Virus record (IMG/VR): IMGVR_UViG_3300033153_013322
Span: 1 to 22,381 of that record
Length of the DNA stretch: 22,381 nt
From: a virus
Direction: 5' to 3' (one strand)
Position 1 is the stretch's first letter, and each line of letters starts with the position of its first letter. The position numbers and the translations under genes are program-made. This document shows positions 166 through 7,383 of this stretch, piece by piece. The notes under the pieces are model-generated. The model ran no database searches. It was not told the origin of the DNA and saw nothing but the letters and a program-made list of their open reading frames with translations.

Positions 166-852
166 TTATAAGAGACCTGTTCGACCAAGCATTTCTATAT
201 CTTCTTCTATAAATGGTACAGGTGCTGGCGTTGGTACAGGCACAGGAATTGGTTGAGGCATTATCTGATCTTGATTTTGATCTTCGATTTCCGTTTCTTC
301 TTCAGCCCAATCATATGCAACAGTCATCTCTATCAATTTAACATCACTTTGTGTATAAGTGAGATCTCCATATTTGATAATTTTTGGCCATGAATTATTA
401 AGAACCCATGTGATAGGTTGCCCAAGTTTATCCCCATCATATGTTGGCAAATAATTTTTAAGTTTTGACATCTTTTTATACGCCGAGGCGGGTTGGATAC
501 CAGTTATTGGGTTCCAAACTCGCTTACGCCATTTTCGCATTTTTTCTACAAGACCAACAGAATCATACCAAGAAAGTTTAACATCTTCCCATATCACGCT
601 TTTTGCCCATTTATATTCTAAGCTACCACCAACTATCGAATCAACATTCGCAGTAAATGTCGGTAAAGTAGCATCCTTTAAATAAACCAACGGGTTATCA
701 GAATACAATGGTACATCGCTTGCCCCGTCATCTTCAAAATAACTTGTAACTTCCCAAGTATATTTATAATAAAATTCTTGACGCCCGCTACCATCTGAAA
801 GACTCGGTATTGGTGCGTGATCTCCAGGACCAGCAATTATAAAACCAGGCAT
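166..852 (-). CDS. gp19-like tail tube paralogue (copy 3), with Pro-rich C-terminal tail
   Basis: This 228-aa protein begins MPGFIIAGPG, sharing the MPGF start with its upstream neighbours. Its middle carries the pattern seen in T4 gp19-type tube proteins: a conserved Trp before a WYD-type strand (VIWEDVKLSWYD), then a two-strand region (TWVLNNSWP) and a closing strand (IEMTVAYDWAEEE). I infer a tube-fold protein, either a second tube subunit or a tube initiator or terminator. After the fold comes an acidic stretch, a Pro/Val-rich linker (IPVPVPTPAPVPF) and a short end (EDIEMLGRTGLL), which the other copies lack. The linker suggests a flexible extension. It starts 10 bases after the stop of copy 2, so the two are probably co-translated; a GAGAG element lies before the ATG. 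Confidence 0.7.
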   Translation of the reverse strand: MPGFIIAGPGDHAPIPSLSDGSGRQEFYYKYTWEVTSYFEDDGASDVPLYSDNPLVYLKDATLPTFTANVDSIVGGSLEYKWAKSVIWEDVKLSWYDSVGLVEKMRKWRKRVWNPITGIQPASAYKKMSKLKNYLPTYDGDKLGQPITWVLNNSWPKIIKYGDLTYTQSDVKLIEMTVAYDWAEEETEIEDQNQDQIMPQPIPVPVPTPAPVPFIEEDIEMLGRTGLL

Positions 853-862
853 TTTACTCTCA

Positions 863-1576
863 CTAGAGAAGTTTAGAAGTTTTTGGATAGTATAAACCTT
901 GTGTTTCCACAGCTTTTTGGAATCGTAGTGTCAAAGTAATATCTGCTATATTAGAATCAGAAAAATCAGCATCAGTTGGCGTCACTTTCATCGGCCAACA
1001 ATCATACAAACGATATTCCCATACCGTATTACCAAAACCATCAAGCATTCTCAATAAACCATGTGCTAAATATTTTGATGGTTTGTTATGGCGTAATCCA
1101 GACAAAATCATAGTCTGAGCCCACCATTTATAAATCAATTTAGCAGTTCGGTTTGATTGTAATATTATCGCACCATCATCATCAGTTACTGTATCTAAGA
1201 CTTCATAAAATGTAATATCTAATGGTTTCCATCTATGCTTACCAGGTCGGTATATTTCATTTTGCCCATGGTGAATAGTAATTTCATCCACTTCTGGCGA
1301 TGGTCTTGCGCATTTATGCGCAAATAGCATAATATCATTCGTTCCCATACCAAACACGGGCTTAAGAAGATAATCAGAATCAGAACCAGAACCAGAATTA
1401 TAACCATTAGAATCAGTTGGTGATATACCCATCATTTTTAACAAAAAACGATGTTTCCGCACTGTTTCTACAGTATGTGTTGGACTACTATATGCTTCAT
1501 AAGGAAGTGGTCCTTTACCTTCCGCAGCAGCACTATCTGGACAGTGAAAATATTTTCCAATTTGAAACCCAGGCAT
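863..1576 (-). CDS. gp19-like tail tube paralogue (copy 2)
   Basis: The 237-aa product begins MPGFQIGKYF and contains HTVETVRKHRF, which aligns with NTVEVRRKHRW of copy 1. Later it has ITIHHGQNEIYRPGKHRWKP and DITFYEV, the tube-type motif of an HH pair, G-K, W-x-P and an aromatic strand, and it ends with a beta strand ITLTLRFQKAVE. These match copy 1 (EMHHNQEVARFAGKQDWDP, TMTWYDV, CTMRYDRAN). Relative to copy 1 it has an insertion of about 20 residues (VTDDDGAIILQSNRT) and a longer N-terminal loop rich in Ser/Gly/Asp. The start is clear: GGAGG lies eight bases before the ATG. It follows a 32-base perfect palindrome after copy 1, so it may also have its own transcript. Predicted role: inner tube of the contractile tail or a specialised end ring. 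Confidence 0.75.
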   Translation of the reverse strand: MPGFQIGKYFHCPDSAAAEGKGPLPYEAYSSPTHTVETVRKHRFLLKMMGISPTDSNGYNSGSGSDSDYLLKPVFGMGTNDIMLFAHKCARPSPEVDEITIHHGQNEIYRPGKHRWKPLDITFYEVLDTVTDDDGAIILQSNRTAKLIYKWWAQTMILSGLRHNKPSKYLAHGLLRMLDGFGNTVWEYRLYDCWPMKVTPTDADFSDSNIADITLTLRFQKAVETQGLYYPKTSKLL

Positions 1577-1659: not shown

Positions 1660-2244
1660 CTAAGGAGCGGGACAACTCGGATCAACAGGTACCGCATCCG
1701 GGCTACCATTACATTGACGATTCGCACGATCATACCGCATAGTACATTCACACGTCAGCAAATCGGTCGATGTGTAATCAAGCTCCTGCCAATTAATCGC
1801 AGAAGGCCAAGTACCCCACATTGTCCACAATTCACCAGCCTGACCCGTACCATCAAGAGTTCTAAGCTGAGCATGCTTCTTATAATGGCTAGGATGGGCC
1901 ACAGCAATCGTTTGCATATTCACCACTGTTTCAAGCCAGTAATAAATACCGCGAGAAATATCTGGATTTTGCTCTACATCATACCACGTCATCGTAACAG
2001 GATCCCAATCCTGTTTACCAGCAAATCTCGCGACTTCCTGATTATGGTGCATCTCAGCTTCATCAAACTTAAAAGCCGGTCTAGATGCAGATTGTAAAAC
2101 AAGAAGTTCTTGGGCTTTAAAGTAGCCATTACGACCACGACCCAAATAATTAAAAACCCAGCGGTGCTTACGTCTGACTTCCACCGTATTCGATGGACCA
2201 TCAGTATTAAAGCCACCATTACCATTTATATTAAAACCAGGAAT
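1660..2244 (-). CDS. gp19-like tail tube protein (copy 1), probable ATT start codon
   Basis: The product is a 194-aa tube-type protein: RRKHRWVFNYLG near the N-terminus, then EMHHNQEVARFAGKQDWDP, TMTWYDV, a helix with HYKKHAQLRTLDG, WTMWGTWPS, and the closing strand ECTMRYDRAN. T4 gp19 is about 163 aa. The only ATG/GTG/TTG start gives a GTG at 2184 that cuts into the fold and lacks a ribosome-binding site. Twenty codons further upstream the frame reads IPGFNINGNGG, matching the MPGF start of both neighbouring paralogues, with ATT in the initiator position and GGAGG five bases before it. An in-frame TGA lies four codons before the ATT, so the start must fall here; CTG three codons before ATT is the only near-cognate alternative and has no Shine-Dalgarno. 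Position after the sheath gene matches T4 order 18-19. Confidence 0.8.
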   Translation of the reverse strand: MPGFNINGNGGFNTDGPSNTVEVRRKHRWVFNYLGRGRNGYFKAQELLVLQSASRPAFKFDEAEMHHNQEVARFAGKQDWDPVTMTWYDVEQNPDISRGIYYWLETVVNMQTIAVAHPSHYKKHAQLRTLDGTGQAGELWTMWGTWPSAINWQELDYTSTDLLTCECTMRYDRANRQCNGSPDAVPVDPSCPAP

Positions 2245-2249
2245 TGCTG

Positions 2250-2254
2250 CCTCC
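2250..2254 (-). promoter_or_regulatory. GGAGG Shine-Dalgarno that fixes the ATT start of tube copy 1
   Basis: The minus strand reads GGAGG, a five-base spacer CAGCA, then ATT CCT GGT TTT. Spacing is normal for initiation at the ATT and wrong for any other codon in this frame. The same codons in the paralogues read ATG CCT GGT TTT (852) and ATG CCT GGG TTT (1576), so the G of the initiator is replaced by T here. Confidence 0.75.
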
Positions 2255-2313
2255 AGTCAAATCTAACGTAACAACGATTAGGTTTCTACGCCATTTGTCT
2301 TAAGGGTTTTTAT

Positions 2314-3336
2314 ATGCCAACTTCTAAACGAAATCGTTCCGGAGAATATGAACGCCGAAAACAAAAATGTCTTCAATTTAATATTTGCTTCAAATGTTCG
2401 AAACCAAAAGGTAATAATAAATTAAAATGTGACGAGTGTTTAAAAATCAATCGCCAAAAAAACCGAGAACAACGAGCACACCGTTCTCTTATTGGTCTTT
2501 GTGATTGCGGAAAACCAGCACTTCCAAATAAAAAACGATGTGATAAATGTATAAAAAAATATCGTCTTGCCCAAGCAGGTCAACGAATCAAACACAAAAC
2601 CGTTGGCGGTTGTATCACTTGTGGAAAACCACCAGCTTCTGGATTGTCAACATGCAAAGAGTGCGCTATGAGAGCCACAAATGCTACTCTTCGCCGATAT
2701 AATTCAAACAAAGAAAATAGTCTCTGCCCATTTTGTGGTGGAGAACTCAATGATAAGTTTCGATGCGAACCATGTCATAAGAACCATCTTCGGCATAACA
2801 GAACACGTTGGTACCAACAAAGATTAATTGTTTTAAAGCATTATGGCAATGCTTGTATTTGTTGTGGTGAAACAACTTACGAATTCCTAGAAATAGATCA
2901 CATTAATAATGATGGTATCAAACATCGAGATATCGTTGGTAGACATATTATAGAAGATATAATAAAAAACAACTTTCCGACGGATTTACAAATTTTATGT
3001 GCTAATTGTAATCGCGGCAAGGGGAAATTTAAAATCTGTCCGCATAAACAAGAACCAACACTACCAAAATCTAAGAGTGGTATAAACGCAAGGAAACGTC
3101 GCATTAAGTGTATTAATCATTATGGTGGAAAATGTATCTCTTGTGGGGAAAATAATTGGGCTTTTTTAGAATTTGATCATATCAATGATGATGGAAACAA
3201 ACATCGAAAAATCATAAAAGGAAAATCAATTGTTTCTTGGCTTATCCACAATAATTTCCCCGATATGATCCAACTGCTTTGTTGTAATTGTAATAAAACC
3301 AAAGGACTTTATACATCTACAGCAAGAGCCGAATGA
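2314..3336 (+). CDS. Zinc-finger-rich protein with two tandem HNH endonuclease domains
   Basis: This 340-aa basic protein lies opposite to the tail genes. Its first half carries paired Cys knuckles resembling zinc ribbons: C25/C28-C39/C42, C63/C65-C76/C79, C100/C103-C114/C117 and C138/C141-C151/C154. The second half contains two copies of an HNH-type module. Copy A has C181xxC184, FLEIDHINNDGIKHR (D195-H196) and C229xxC232. Copy B has C274xxC277, FLEFDHINDDGNKHR (D288-H289) and C323xxC326. The copies are 93 residues apart. HNH proteins of this kind in phages are usually free-standing homing endonucleases that cut DNA lacking the gene. All Cys and DH residues are intact in both copies. AAGGG lies seven bases before the ATG. 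The gene sits between sheath and tube copy 1, and its last six codons form half of a strong hairpin shared with the sheath 3' end. The target is unknown. Confidence 0.8.
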   Translation: MPTSKRNRSGEYERRKQKCLQFNICFKCSKPKGNNKLKCDECLKINRQKNREQRAHRSLIGLCDCGKPALPNKKRCDKCIKKYRLAQAGQRIKHKTVGGCITCGKPPASGLSTCKECAMRATNATLRRYNSNKENSLCPFCGGELNDKFRCEPCHKNHLRHNRTRWYQQRLIVLKHYGNACICCGETTYEFLEIDHINNDGIKHRDIVGRHIIEDIIKNNFPTDLQILCANCNRGKGKFKICPHKQEPTLPKSKSGINARKRRIKCINHYGGKCISCGENNWAFLEFDHINDDGNKHRKIIKGKSIVSWLIHNNFPDMIQLLCCNCNKTKGLYTSTARAE

Positions 3337-3358
3337 AACCCATTCGGCTCTTGCTGTA
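3318..3358. terminator. 18-bp perfect hairpin shared by convergent HNH and sheath genes
   Basis: The arm at 3318-3335 (TACAGCAAGAGCCGAATG) pairs perfectly with 3341-3358 around a five-base loop (AAACC). The left arm codes for the last residues of the HNH protein (TARAE), and its stop codon overlaps the arm-loop boundary. The right arm ends 15 bases past the stop of the tail sheath gene on the other strand. In the plus direction TTTTT appears nine bases past the stem; in the minus direction no U-tract is present. It probably acts as a bidirectional terminator or 3'-end stabiliser. Confidence 0.65.
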
Positions 3359-3373
3359 TCAAGATTTTTACAC

Positions 3374-6202
3374 TTATACAATACCGCCAGCAGCGAGAAC
3401 TTCCTCAGCAGAGAAACTCGCACCGGTCCGCAACACAACTAAATTCAAAACAACAAATTCAACCGTCTTTGTGGGCTGCAAGAAAATCGACACCCACAAT
3501 TCATTACGATCAATTCGTTCTGGGGTATTATTTGTCTCGTCTACAACTACTTTATAAGCCGTCAAGCCACGTCTGCTTTGGACATCAGCCAAGTATGGCG
3601 AAATTGAATTATCAACCTGATCCCAAAGAGCACGATCATTTGGTTCGAAAATGAAGTTCCGTAGAACTTGTGTCATATTCTTCTTGATGCCAATTAAAAG
3701 CATTCTGACATCGACACGATCTAAAGCAGTTTGTGTCCGTTGTAAAGTTCTCTGCCCCCAAATTGTGATCCCATCTTGCGGGAATTTCACAATCGGATTA
3801 ACAGCATTTCCAGAACCATACAATAAATCTCGCTCACCCTGCGTTGGTGAATACTCAATATCGAGTGCTGTCAGCAAACGACCACGACGTAAACCAGCAG
3901 GAGCAAACCACGTTTCAGCCTCACGAGCAGTTCTGGAAAACACAGCAGAGACATGACCACTGGGTGGAATCCAAACTTCTTGTCTACTAAATTGATCGTA
4001 TACCCGCAACCAGCTCCAGTACAAAGCACCATAGCTGCTATTAATAGCAGTTCGCAAATCAGACAATAACATACCATTATGCCAGTCAACAACTTGCTGT
4101 GGTCTTAGACCAAACGGAGCATCTACAATGTACAGAACATCACCACGACCTTCACAAACTTGCAAAGCCGTACCAATGACTGAACCAGTCGAAAATCCAG
4201 GAGTAAGAAGCAAATTGATATCAATCGCTTCCGGATTCTGGAAAGCATACAAACCAGTCGAAAGTGCTGGATTTCCAATAACTGCAGCATCCAATTCACT
4301 GGAATATGCCGGGTCAGAAGGAATACCATCAGCTTGACCAGTATAAACTTTATTGTTAAATTGGGAAGGCTGACGAACATCATACGTGTCCAAACTCGGA
4401 TTATTATTCAGATATGCCGGACGCTCTTCCCAGTTTGCATAAGGATTACCATTAGTGCCGCCGAGAGTCGACCCAGCATTTATAACATTCCCAATATAAC
4501 GATCATCAATCTTATCAAAAGAAATATCTTGGACTTGCTCTAAAGATTCTCCCTGAGAACCTTTAATTAATAAAGTATATCGACCAGCAGCGTCAAGAGG
4601 ACCAGTAGTAAACGCACTAAGATTAAGCGTTAAACCATCGACCCACGTACCTGCAGAGGGAGCAACCAACCAACCGACAATATTAGCAAAATAAGCGGTA
4701 TCAGCCACACATTCATTGCTAAGAGGATCTGCTTCACACGATAATGGTTGGGAAACAGTGGTTTCACCAGAAGCTGGCAGCAATACTCGATTATCATTAA
4801 ACCCACGATAAGCACGGGTATAAGGATAAGGAATGTTCAATTCTTCGGCGAATCGCAATGTTTTGAGATTCGAAAAATCTGCAAGCATCAAAAGAGTATC
4901 AAACTGATGGGTCGAACCAACTACAATCACAACATGAGTTGAACCACCAGAGACTTGCAGCTCGAAGGAATCCCATAAAATATCACCAGCTACAACACCA
5001 GCAGTATCAATCGATGCCGCTACAGAAGCAGTTGTCTGATTAAGACCAACTGGAACATTAAATTCAACATCTAATGTTTCGGTCTGACCAATAACATTAA
5101 TTCTAACACGATTGTTTTGCGAAGTAATATTGTAAGGACCAGGATCAAGACCCAATAAATATGATCGTGGGATATCCCAAGCATATGCTTGACTACCGCA
5201 TTCGAGAGCAAAAGCAACAGTGCCAGTCAATTGAATTCTATCACCAGCGATAGTCGATCGGACTTGCGGAATAACCGTTTCGCCATCATCCAGTGTATGC
5301 TCTGTAAAAATGTAATCTTCACCAGAAATCAAAGCATTAGCTGCATCTGTAAATGTCGCAGCATCCGTATAAGTCGCGGCCAACATTGTATAAACAGTTG
5401 GAGACGTATCACCTTCAATCGCTATGGTAAAATTACGGTTATTTGGCACAACCGTAAAGCTGAATGTATCATTTTCATCAAGAACGCCAGAAGTCACTTC
5501 AACTTGTATAGATAATCCATCTTCAACTGAGATGAATGAAGATTGTCCAGTGTCTCCCGGATCATCTAAGATTCCTTCGGATACGATTATACCATCGCTA
5601 TTTCTGACAATTTGATATCCAGCACCTGATACTGGCGCATTGTCTGAAATATTTGGTGCTGATGTGATGATCATAATGTATGAGTCATCAACCGAATCGG
5701 AATAGGTAACATTTAATGTAGCGGCTGTCGCTCCAAAAGTATTGGAAACTTCAACATCATTATAATCAATCGAACTTACCGACGCATCGTGGAATACTAA
5801 TGGGCTGTCGGCTGTGACTTCGCGAAAATTGATACGACCGAAATCAATGCCTTTGAACAATGGGAGTCGTCCCCAACCTTGTCCTCTAACACCTGACGTG
5901 TCGATGCAAACATCATCCAATTCGGTTGGTTGACCTTCTGCGCATTCAACAGCAACTCGCATTACATAGCATTGGTTGCCTTCTTCAAGATACGCTAAAA
6001 CTGCATATCCGAGGAAACTTTTGGTAAATGGATTCCCAAAAGTATCAATATATTGTGTTGATGTTGTAATCAGTGTCGCTACATTCAGCGGACCTTTATT
6101 GGCAGTACCAACAAATGCTGGACGTAGCGGACCAACAGATGTTGGTAGGACACTGAGATCGATTTCCCTTGGGAAAACGCCGGGACTAAGATATACTGCC
6201 AT
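3374..6202 (-). CDS. Contractile tail sheath protein (T4 gp18-like)
   Basis: The 942-aa product starts MAVYLSPGVFPREIDLS, the usual opening of sheath subunits, and ends with the conserved C-terminal domain: WFAPAGLRRG, a region around DGITIWGQRTLQ, RRMLLIGIKK-type text (VDVRMLLIGIKKNM), FIFEPNDRALWDQV, GLTAYKVVVDETNN and ELWVSIFLQPTKTVEFVVLN. Many copies would polymerise around the tube and contract during DNA injection. T4 gp18 is 659 aa, so about 280 extra residues are present. They lie between the N-terminal motif and the C-terminal core, and read as beta-rich Thr/Ser/Asp-rich domains (about residues 95-480), probably surface-exposed. I chose the ATG at 6202 over that at 6217: GGAG precedes the former by nine bases, whereas the latter lies at the edge of a hairpin and has no ribosome-binding site. 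Confidence 0.92.
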   Translation of the reverse strand: MAVYLSPGVFPREIDLSVLPTSVGPLRPAFVGTANKGPLNVATLITTSTQYIDTFGNPFTKSFLGYAVLAYLEEGNQCYVMRVAVECAEGQPTELDDVCIDTSGVRGQGWGRLPLFKGIDFGRINFREVTADSPLVFHDASVSSIDYNDVEVSNTFGATAATLNVTYSDSVDDSYIMIITSAPNISDNAPVSGAGYQIVRNSDGIIVSEGILDDPGDTGQSSFISVEDGLSIQVEVTSGVLDENDTFSFTVVPNNRNFTIAIEGDTSPTVYTMLAATYTDAATFTDAANALISGEDYIFTEHTLDDGETVIPQVRSTIAGDRIQLTGTVAFALECGSQAYAWDIPRSYLLGLDPGPYNITSQNNRVRINVIGQTETLDVEFNVPVGLNQTTASVAASIDTAGVVAGDILWDSFELQVSGGSTHVVIVVGSTHQFDTLLMLADFSNLKTLRFAEELNIPYPYTRAYRGFNDNRVLLPASGETTVSQPLSCEADPLSNECVADTAYFANIVGWLVAPSAGTWVDGLTLNLSAFTTGPLDAAGRYTLLIKGSQGESLEQVQDISFDKIDDRYIGNVINAGSTLGGTNGNPYANWEERPAYLNNNPSLDTYDVRQPSQFNNKVYTGQADGIPSDPAYSSELDAAVIGNPALSTGLYAFQNPEAIDINLLLTPGFSTGSVIGTALQVCEGRGDVLYIVDAPFGLRPQQVVDWHNGMLLSDLRTAINSSYGALYWSWLRVYDQFSRQEVWIPPSGHVSAVFSRTAREAETWFAPAGLRRGRLLTALDIEYSPTQGERDLLYGSGNAVNPIVKFPQDGITIWGQRTLQRTQTALDRVDVRMLLIGIKKNMTQVLRNFIFEPNDRALWDQVDNSISPYLADVQSRRGLTAYKVVVDETNNTPERIDRNELWVSIFLQPTKTVEFVVLNLVVLRTGASFSAEEVLAAGGIV

Positions 6203-6216
6203 TGGTGTCCGCTCCA

Positions 6217-6253
6217 TTCGTCAAAATTGACTTCTGTGGGTATTTTTGACGAA
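6217..6253 (-). promoter_or_regulatory. 10-bp hairpin directly in front of the sheath ribosome-binding site
   Basis: TTCGTCAAAA at 6217-6226 is the exact reverse complement of TTTTGACGAA at 6244-6253, with a 17-base loop. On the minus-strand transcript this stem ends one base before the GGAG used by the sheath gene. The downstream flank is not U-rich, so it does not look like a classical terminator. It may stabilise the 5' end of the sheath mRNA or be a processing site; that role is an inference. Confidence 0.45.
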
Positions 6254-6525: not shown

Positions 6526-7383
6526 TCAAATATCTTGAACAGGTTCATACGAAGTATTACTAGATTCAGAAACGTAAAGGATTTTCCCCGTCATTTCTTT
6601 AACTAAACTAATCTGGCCCAGAACAGTCTTAACGATCGTCTCCGGTAGTGGTAACCACGCTTCAGCAACCATGGTTACTTCATACCGTACTTTTGCATGT
6701 GTATCAAATCCAGCTTCCTTATCACTAGAATCAGTAGAACCACTATAACGAATTTGAATATTTCCCTGGATTTTACCATCGAACATTTTAAATTCAGCAA
6801 GAGGATTAAATCTAGTGAGGACTTGATATAATATATACTCAATATCTCTTTTATGCTCAGCCCAAATTGTAAAATTATAATCAACAAGCCAAGGCGTAGG
6901 ACGATATACCTGAGCAGCCATATCACCACGAGTACTCAAATATCTATGATTCATAGGATGATAAGCTGGGCTAAACTTTTCCGGGTTAAACTCAATACCC
7001 TCCCGACTAATGGCAGCAACCGGCAAACGAACACGACCTTCAACAAGATCATCATTCCAAATCAGAACACTCTTATCACCACCAGCAATCTTAACTCTCA
7101 TAAAACGATACGAATCTTTAGTAGGCACCCGTATACCAGTCCAATACTGCTTCATCGCCTGGTCCAAAGACCTAAAACCAGGAATCAAGAATTCCTCTAA
7201 ATATGTCGGATATTCCTGAACACCACTAGATTGAATATGAGTACGGCCACCCTCAGCATGACTCAACTGAGCCATAGCAGGAGTAGAAGGTAATCCTAAC
7301 GGCAATTCACTAGGCGGAACAGTACGCTGTTCCGGATTTACCGTAAAATCAGAGCTAAAATCGTAAAGCGGCACGTCATTCAA
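6526..7383 (-). CDS. Tail terminator / sheath stabiliser (T4 gp15-like)
   Basis: The 285-aa product matches the layout of T4 gp15 (272 aa), the ring that caps sheath and tube and joins the tail to the neck. Residues from about 70 carry FRSLDQAMKQYWTGIRVPT and YRFMRVKIA, then VRLPVAAISREGIEFNPEKF, then RPTPWLVDYNFTIWAEHKRD followed by IEYILYQVLTRFNPLAEFKM, and a strand VRYEVTMVAEAWLPLPE. In gp15 the equivalent features are a predicted-strand region with LPRINLHLVDFSYN, NPSPIKMIYELSIFTRYEDD and QIVEQILPYFQP. The start is a TTG overlapping the upstream stop (TTGA). An in-frame TAA lies two codons before it, so the only later ATG choice is at 7275. The first ~60 residues are Pro/Ser rich. Weak ribosome-binding site; translational coupling is likely. 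Confidence 0.72.
   Translation of the reverse strand: MNDVPLYDFSSDFTVNPEQRTVPPSELPLGLPSTPAMAQLSHAEGGRTHIQSSGVQEYPTYLEEFLIPGFRSLDQAMKQYWTGIRVPTKDSYRFMRVKIAGGDKSVLIWNDDLVEGRVRLPVAAISREGIEFNPEKFSPAYHPMNHRYLSTRGDMAAQVYRPTPWLVDYNFTIWAEHKRDIEYILYQVLTRFNPLAEFKMFDGKIQGNIQIRYSGSTDSSDKEAGFDTHAKVRYEVTMVAEAWLPLPETIVKTVLGQISLVKEMTGKILYVSESSNTSYEPVQDI

Follow-up and report, generated by a model that had tools for sequence, protein, structure and literature searches.

An ATT start codon in a phage tail-tube gene and its association with an adjacent HNH endonuclease gene

Introduction

Does a phage tail-tube gene begin with ATT, and if it does, what accounts for so unusual a start? The question is raised by tube3, one of three paralogous tail-tube genes in the 22,381 bases analysed here, which make up the entire IMG/VR virus record IMGVR_UViG_3300033153_013322 (hereafter the window). 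AUU-type starts are known from very few bacterial genes and are usually ascribed to regulation. It is very probable that tube3 of the window does use ATT as its start codon, and in related phages this departure from ATG accompanies a free-standing HNH-type endonuclease gene inserted just upstream. The explanation that we consider on balance probable, judged from comparison of sequences, is that this gene encodes a homing endonuclease targeting the tube start, and that the altered codon represents the cleavage-resistant allele of the donor.

The tube gene and its start

The tube3 gene lies on the minus strand (1660..2244), with 194 codons counted from ATT. It resembles the tail-tube families PHROG 4542 (7.7e-23) and PHROG 45 (3.3e-14), and its match to Pfam Phage_T4_gp19 (1.8e-5) falls short of the curated cut-off; both its similarity to tail-tube families and its position after the sheath gene mark it as gp19-like. 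The sequence around its start, on the minus strand, is ...TTTGACTGGAGGCAGCA ATT CCT GGT TTT AAT ATA. The ATT itself (2242..2244, minus strand), at a position occupied by ATG in most relatives that lack the HNH gene, is preceded at a spacing of 5 nucleotides by the Shine-Dalgarno (SD) sequence GGAGG (2250..2254, minus strand) and further upstream by an in-frame TGA (2257..2259, minus strand); read from 2262, the minus strand is ATTTGACTGGAGGCAGCAATTCCTGGTTTTAATATAAATGG. Only four sense codons, CTG GAG GCA GCA, separate this stop from the ATT, so that no ATG, GTG or TTG start is available upstream in the window, and the CTG (2256) overlaps the SD. The paralogous genes tube2 (863..1576, minus strand; PHROG 4542 1.9e-17) and tube1 (166..852, minus strand; PHROG 4542 1.4e-14) begin with ATG and encode MPGFQI and MPGFII, their starts reading ATGCCTGGGTTT at 1576 and ATGCCTGGTTTT at 852. 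A standard open reading frame (ORF) call places the start of tube3 at an in-frame GTG at residue 21 (2182..2184, minus strand), which has no SD and whose position varies among relatives.

The main points had been set out in the preliminary description, made from the window alone: the ATT, the GGAGG at a five-base spacing and the in-frame stop, the lack of a fitting conventional start, the ATG of both paralogues, and the expectation that gene finders would choose a GTG some 20 residues downstream are borne out. The account also raised the possibility of a base error, to be checked in reads and relatives. Sequencing error as the source of the ATT is ruled out, as the same codon recurs in independent contigs, some of them from distant relatives.

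Two further lines of evidence bear on the start. Between genes that begin with ATT, the first 22 codons after this triplet have a non-synonymous divergence (dN) of 0.16-0.37 against a synonymous divergence (dS) of 0.9 to saturated, as crude NG86 estimates over short stretches, and dN so far below dS indicates that the N-terminal stretch is probably translated. Initiation at ATT in the window would yield the N-terminal peptide MPGFNINGNGGFNTDGPSNTVEVR. In addition, pairing of the SD is stronger at ATT starts than at ATG starts (median -9.3 versus -6.0 kcal/mol; Mann-Whitney P 0.008), which looks like compensation for a weak codon.

Start codons in related tube genes

The start codon was compared across metagenomic records, often fragments, which carry L numbers here. 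A first profile search retrieved 80 related tube genes, of which 68 begin with ATG, 6 with ATT and 4 with GTG, with 2 truncated; once a second search had been added, duplicates removed and three false assignments excluded, the counts for tube3 were 66 ATG, 6 ATT and 5 GTG. Besides the window, ATT is found in L004 (72% amino acid identity), L139/L140/L141, L144, L190 and L212. In L004, the closest relative found first, the start reads GGAGG TAATC ATT CCT GGT TTT. On a tree of 73 tube3 proteins the ATT genes are scattered, requiring 4-5 changes, at least 3 of them forced by well-supported branches. All 8 distinct ATT starts are FNI starts; two of them (tube2 of L130/L266, and L185) come from records on which no HNH gene is present. 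The three tube paralogues of L190 (3051, 3645 and 4282) all lack ATG, beginning with ATT, TTG and GTG. A search with the pattern GGAGG-NTN-CCNGGNTTYAA was set aside, since the matches listed were mostly unrelated coding DNA.

Association with the HNH gene

What the preliminary description did not mention is the antisense HNH gene that is inserted 69 nucleotides upstream of tube3 and to which the ATT is tied; relatives without this gene have ATG, occasionally GTG. All five non-identical tube3 genes that have the antisense HNH gene, or in L004 its 5' remnant, about 60-78 nucleotides upstream start with ATT. No ATT tube3 occurs among loci with upstream sequence and no HNH gene, and no ATG tube3 adjoins one. 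For the sixth ATT tube3, that of L212, the contig ends before any upstream gene, but the right end of the element is present (see below); Fisher's test of the association gives 3.0e-7 with L212 counted against it. Insertion between sheath and tube as such was considered as a cause of the start change and rejected. At about 20 loci, other insertions longer than 600 bp lie between sheath and tube, a number of them with large endonuclease-like genes, and ATG is kept, so the change belongs to this HNH element and not to separation from the sheath.

The pattern extends to particular paralogues within the same genomes. Starts of the FN[IV] type (ATGCCNGGNTTYAAY) have ATG in 0/6 distinct cases in genomes with an intact HNH gene (5 ATT, 1 GTG) as against 85/92 in HNH-free genomes (Fisher 1.6e-6, uncorrected for ancestry, for a site class that was picked after the data had been seen and around a putative cut site), while other paralogue types (FQI, FII, FVV and so on) in these HNH genomes retain ATG in 7/10. 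In L155, where the HNH gene is broken, an intact ATGCCAGGTTTCAATATA is present at tube2. Some phages with ATG tube genes, for example L250, carry different but related HNH genes elsewhere and nevertheless have FNI sites with ATG, so that the pattern is particular to the HNH subfamily next to the tube gene; the HNH scan of further control records covered n=50. The association with non-ATG starts thus holds across several lineages and at two paralogous sites.

The HNH gene and its conserved right end

The HNH gene occupies 2314..3336 on the plus strand, antisense between sheath and tube, and encodes a protein of 340 amino acids. Its assignment is based on PHROG matches (HNH endonuclease, 5.3e-7), on Pfam HNH matches that are weak (4/5 relatives, best E 0.007) and on conserved residues, with CxxC-rich N-terminal segments followed by two conserved HNH-like units of the DH...H...CxxC type. 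A structure model (pLDDT 79, pTM 0.43) gave only weak HNH matches in a fold search, the HNH nickase 4h9d ranking second (E 0.36). Bacterial and archaeal genomes searched for this HNH protein yielded distant HNH proteins only. The tube-adjacent HNH genes are evidently under purifying selection (dN 0.17 versus dS 1.6 between the window and L139).

The gene has three properties of a free-standing homing endonuclease gene: it is an optional ORF that lies between conserved genes in scattered lineages and is missing from close relatives; it encodes an HNH nuclease domain according to PHROG and, weakly, Pfam; and it lies outside any self-splicing intron or intein. There was no Rfam match anywhere in the window. 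A mobile group I intron whose splicing would restore an ATG was rejected on this result, together with the stop and SD that lie between the insertion and the gene and with the conserved end of the element, which stops at the SD.

This right end (2250..2298, minus strand), ACAAATGGCGTA...TACGTTAGATTTGACTGGAGG, stands before non-ATG tube genes. It is kept, as ACAAATGGCGTA...TACGTTAGATTTGAYTGGAGG, in separate lineages even though their tube proteins share only about 50% identity, and the nucleotides from SD to start vary between copies. A scan of IMG/VR located the motif only at these tube loci and within unrelated coding sequence, and on this basis it was rejected as a general phage promoter. 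Copies of the element also occur in other arrangements. In L212 an HNH gene lies before tube2, whose start codon is TTG; the tube2 of L139 is preceded by a solo right end and starts with GTG; L155 has a short HNH remnant with a stop, and its tube3 starts with GTG; and L144, in which both the HNH gene (53% identity) and the right end are more divergent, also has ATT. A possible hairpin, GCGTA...TACGT, is present in the tube leader (window 2245-2298), with G-C/G-U variation between records (GCGTA/TACGC in L004, GTGTA/TACGC in L190).

The surroundings of the insertion

The tail sheath gene (3374..6217, minus strand; PHROG 23 1.8e-82) is directly upstream of the tube gene in insertion-free relatives, and in many HNH-free relatives only 10-30 nucleotides separate the sheath stop from the tube start. 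In the window the sheath and HNH genes converge on a perfect 18-bp inverted repeat (3318..3358), a probable bidirectional terminator. The window sheath (3374-3390) ends ...AAGGIV and a stop, and those of L130 and L133 run several codons further; possibly the insertion took the place of the final codons of the gene. Large proteins that appear by eye to consist of an EDxHD/Vsr-type endonuclease and, after it, an acetyltransferase-like part are encoded by repeated insertions near the sheath-tube junction (L004 792-2477 and 3116-4627; also L140, L180, L185 and L193-L195), and this junction is an insertion hotspot. Positions 1-5081 of L205 (IMGVR_UViG_3300033143_007503, 37,977 bp) are from the same phage as the window, at 99.86% identity. 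Contigs break at the HNH-tube junction in L205 (8 nucleotides before the tube ATT), in L212 (39 nucleotides upstream of ATT) and in L209 (at the HNH start), which suggests that strains differ here or that the element is present more than once.

A proposed homing endonuclease directed at the tube start

In the mechanism favoured here, a mobile free-standing HNH gene would have settled beside tube3, leaving the tube protein to be translated from AUU. The enzyme would recognise the conserved DNA of the tube-gene start, ATGCCNGGNTTYAAYAT in phages without the HNH gene; homing endonucleases tend to be directed at conserved DNA (PMC2988022), and the start of the tube genes is conserved. The putative target region in the window (2227..2244, minus strand) has ATT CCT GGT TTT AAT ATA in its place. 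Repair from a co-infecting carrier would copy the HNH gene, the right end of about 50 bp with its strong SD, and the altered start codon of the donor. The ATT, or GTG or TTG in other copies, would shield the carrier's own target from cutting, and the strong SD would offset the weak start codon. A requirement for self-resistance predicts that FN[IV] starts are non-ATG in carriers and that ATT is found only at starts of the FNI type, as is the case. The sequences themselves show the ATT with its SD, the coding constraint on the N-terminus, the HNH insertion and its association with non-ATG starts; that the enzyme cuts at this codon, that the gene homes, that the codon change confers resistance and that AUU initiates translation are the parts that we infer.

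Several points weigh against this mechanism. Independent acquisitions of the HNH gene are few (about 3-5), the statistics ignore shared ancestry, and the FN[IV] class was defined after the data had been seen. The recognition site and its cleavage are putative. GTG and TTG are ordinary start codons, and both are also seen at tube genes without an HNH gene. ATT occurs with no HNH gene on record in L130/L266 (at tube2) and L185, though these records are fragments. Co-transfer of one ATT allele with the element may account for some of these observations, but it would leave the GTG and TTG starts unexplained. Finally, for the free-standing endonucleases studied in T4, the cut sites are at least hundreds of bases distant from the endonuclease genes (PMC2988022).

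In L130 the tube3 start at 5938 is GTG and the tube2 start at 6643 is ATT (5001 and 5706 in L266), with no HNH gene found on the 29,855-bp record; L130/L266 possibly represent a scar or an escape allele. The fuller proposal, to which we would give about an even chance, is that the endonuclease is directed at the codon with which a virion gene begins, that replacement of ATG by a near-cognate codon confers resistance, that homing in this way rewrites where translation of the neighbouring gene starts, that the AUU start is the price of self-immunity, and that the ATT and GTG starts of L130 and L185, which have no HNH gene on record, are escape alleles or scars.

Alternative explanations

The alternative that fares best, though unlikely, is that one ATT mutation arose beside the HNH gene and was spread by co-conversion at each homing event, with no role in resistance. 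Co-conversion of flanks is usual for free-standing endonucleases (PMC2988022), and ATTCCTGGTTTTAATATC is identical over 18 nucleotides in L004 and L190 despite their distant tube proteins. Starts flanked by the element are, however, also GTG (L155, and tube2 of L139) and TTG (tube2 of L212), so that no single allele has been inherited, and a structural gene with so weak a start would be expected to tend back to ATG unless selection acted to keep it.

Somewhat less likely still is dosage tuning, in which the insertion provides the tube gene with its own promoter and a strong SD, and the weak codon restores the amount of protein. The HNH insertion does part tube from sheath, and all of the start codons observed here in place of ATG are weaker than ATG. 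The retention of ATG at the other sheath-tube insertions of more than 600 bp argues against this, as do SDs that are stronger rather than weaker at ATT starts; it would also leave unexplained why, within HNH genomes, paralogues of the FN[IV] type lose ATG and the others mostly keep it.

It is improbable, to a slightly greater degree, that the real start is elsewhere, either at an internal GTG, TTG or ATG at about residues 20-35 or further upstream, for example at CTG. The window has the GTG at residue 21, and in-frame candidates upstream of the ATT are a TTG in L139 and an ATG in L144 and L185. Downstream in-frame candidates nevertheless differ in position between genes and none has an SD; the first in L139 is at residue 35, and in the ATT-initiated tube2 of L266 the whole frame from the upstream stop to residue 46 contains no ATG, GTG or TTG. 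The N-terminus is moreover conserved as protein, and the CTG of the window lies partly within the SD.

Least probable is control of tube expression by IF3 through AUU, for even though IF3 represses the ATT start of infC in Escherichia coli (PMC5472188) and the SD-ATT arrangement is kept in several lineages, nothing ties the presence of an HNH gene to IF3. Of the interpretation offered in the preliminary description, the likely ATT start, the miscalled ORF and the absence of a base error stand, and the suggestion that ATT limits tube expression or ties it to IF3 is not supported; strong SDs at ATT starts resemble compensation and not down-tuning.

Comparison with known systems

The start-codon change at this locus tracks a selfish element, in several phage lineages and in two paralogous genes. 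If the mechanism proposed above is correct, homing endonucleases would have a route by which to alter translation starts, the altered start would offer a mark from which the target site of a so far uncharacterised HNH family can be computed, and standard gene calling would truncate such tube proteins. No report of start-codon substitution as a resistance change was found in the literature, in a search that left most subscription journals outside its reach and that is weak evidence of novelty.

Among bacterial-type genes, infC shares an ATT start with tube3 (PMC5472188); infC encodes IF3 and is autoregulated, whereas tube3 encodes a structural protein and has a start codon that differs according to a mobile element. 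T-even phages commonly carry free-standing endonucleases of the HNH and GIY-YIG types, and their segD gene lies antisense between structural genes (PMC2988022). Like the seg and mob genes, the window gene is an optional endonuclease gene between conserved genes and absent from close relatives (PMC2988022); unlike them, its presumed resistance allele is the start codon of the neighbouring gene, giving ATT, GTG or TTG, and its product has CxxC-rich segments and two HNH units. The HNH genes of lactococcal Skunavirus are likewise free-standing, and the available part of that account assumes that recipients become resistant when the donor replaces the cleavage sequence, as is accepted for intronless homing; their targets are given there as unknown, and that part draws no link to start codons (PMC12724721). 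In collaborative homing an intron shields the carrier (PMC6083498). F-CphI of cyanophage S-PM2 is close to what is proposed here, as a free-standing enzyme that targets a neighbouring gene whose copy in the carrier must be altered against self-cleavage (PMC6083498); in S-PM2 the alteration is a group I intron within the target, and in the window a start-codon substitution would serve instead. The locus is most likely a case of intronless homing in a variant form, with the codon at which a tail-tube gene starts as the protected site.
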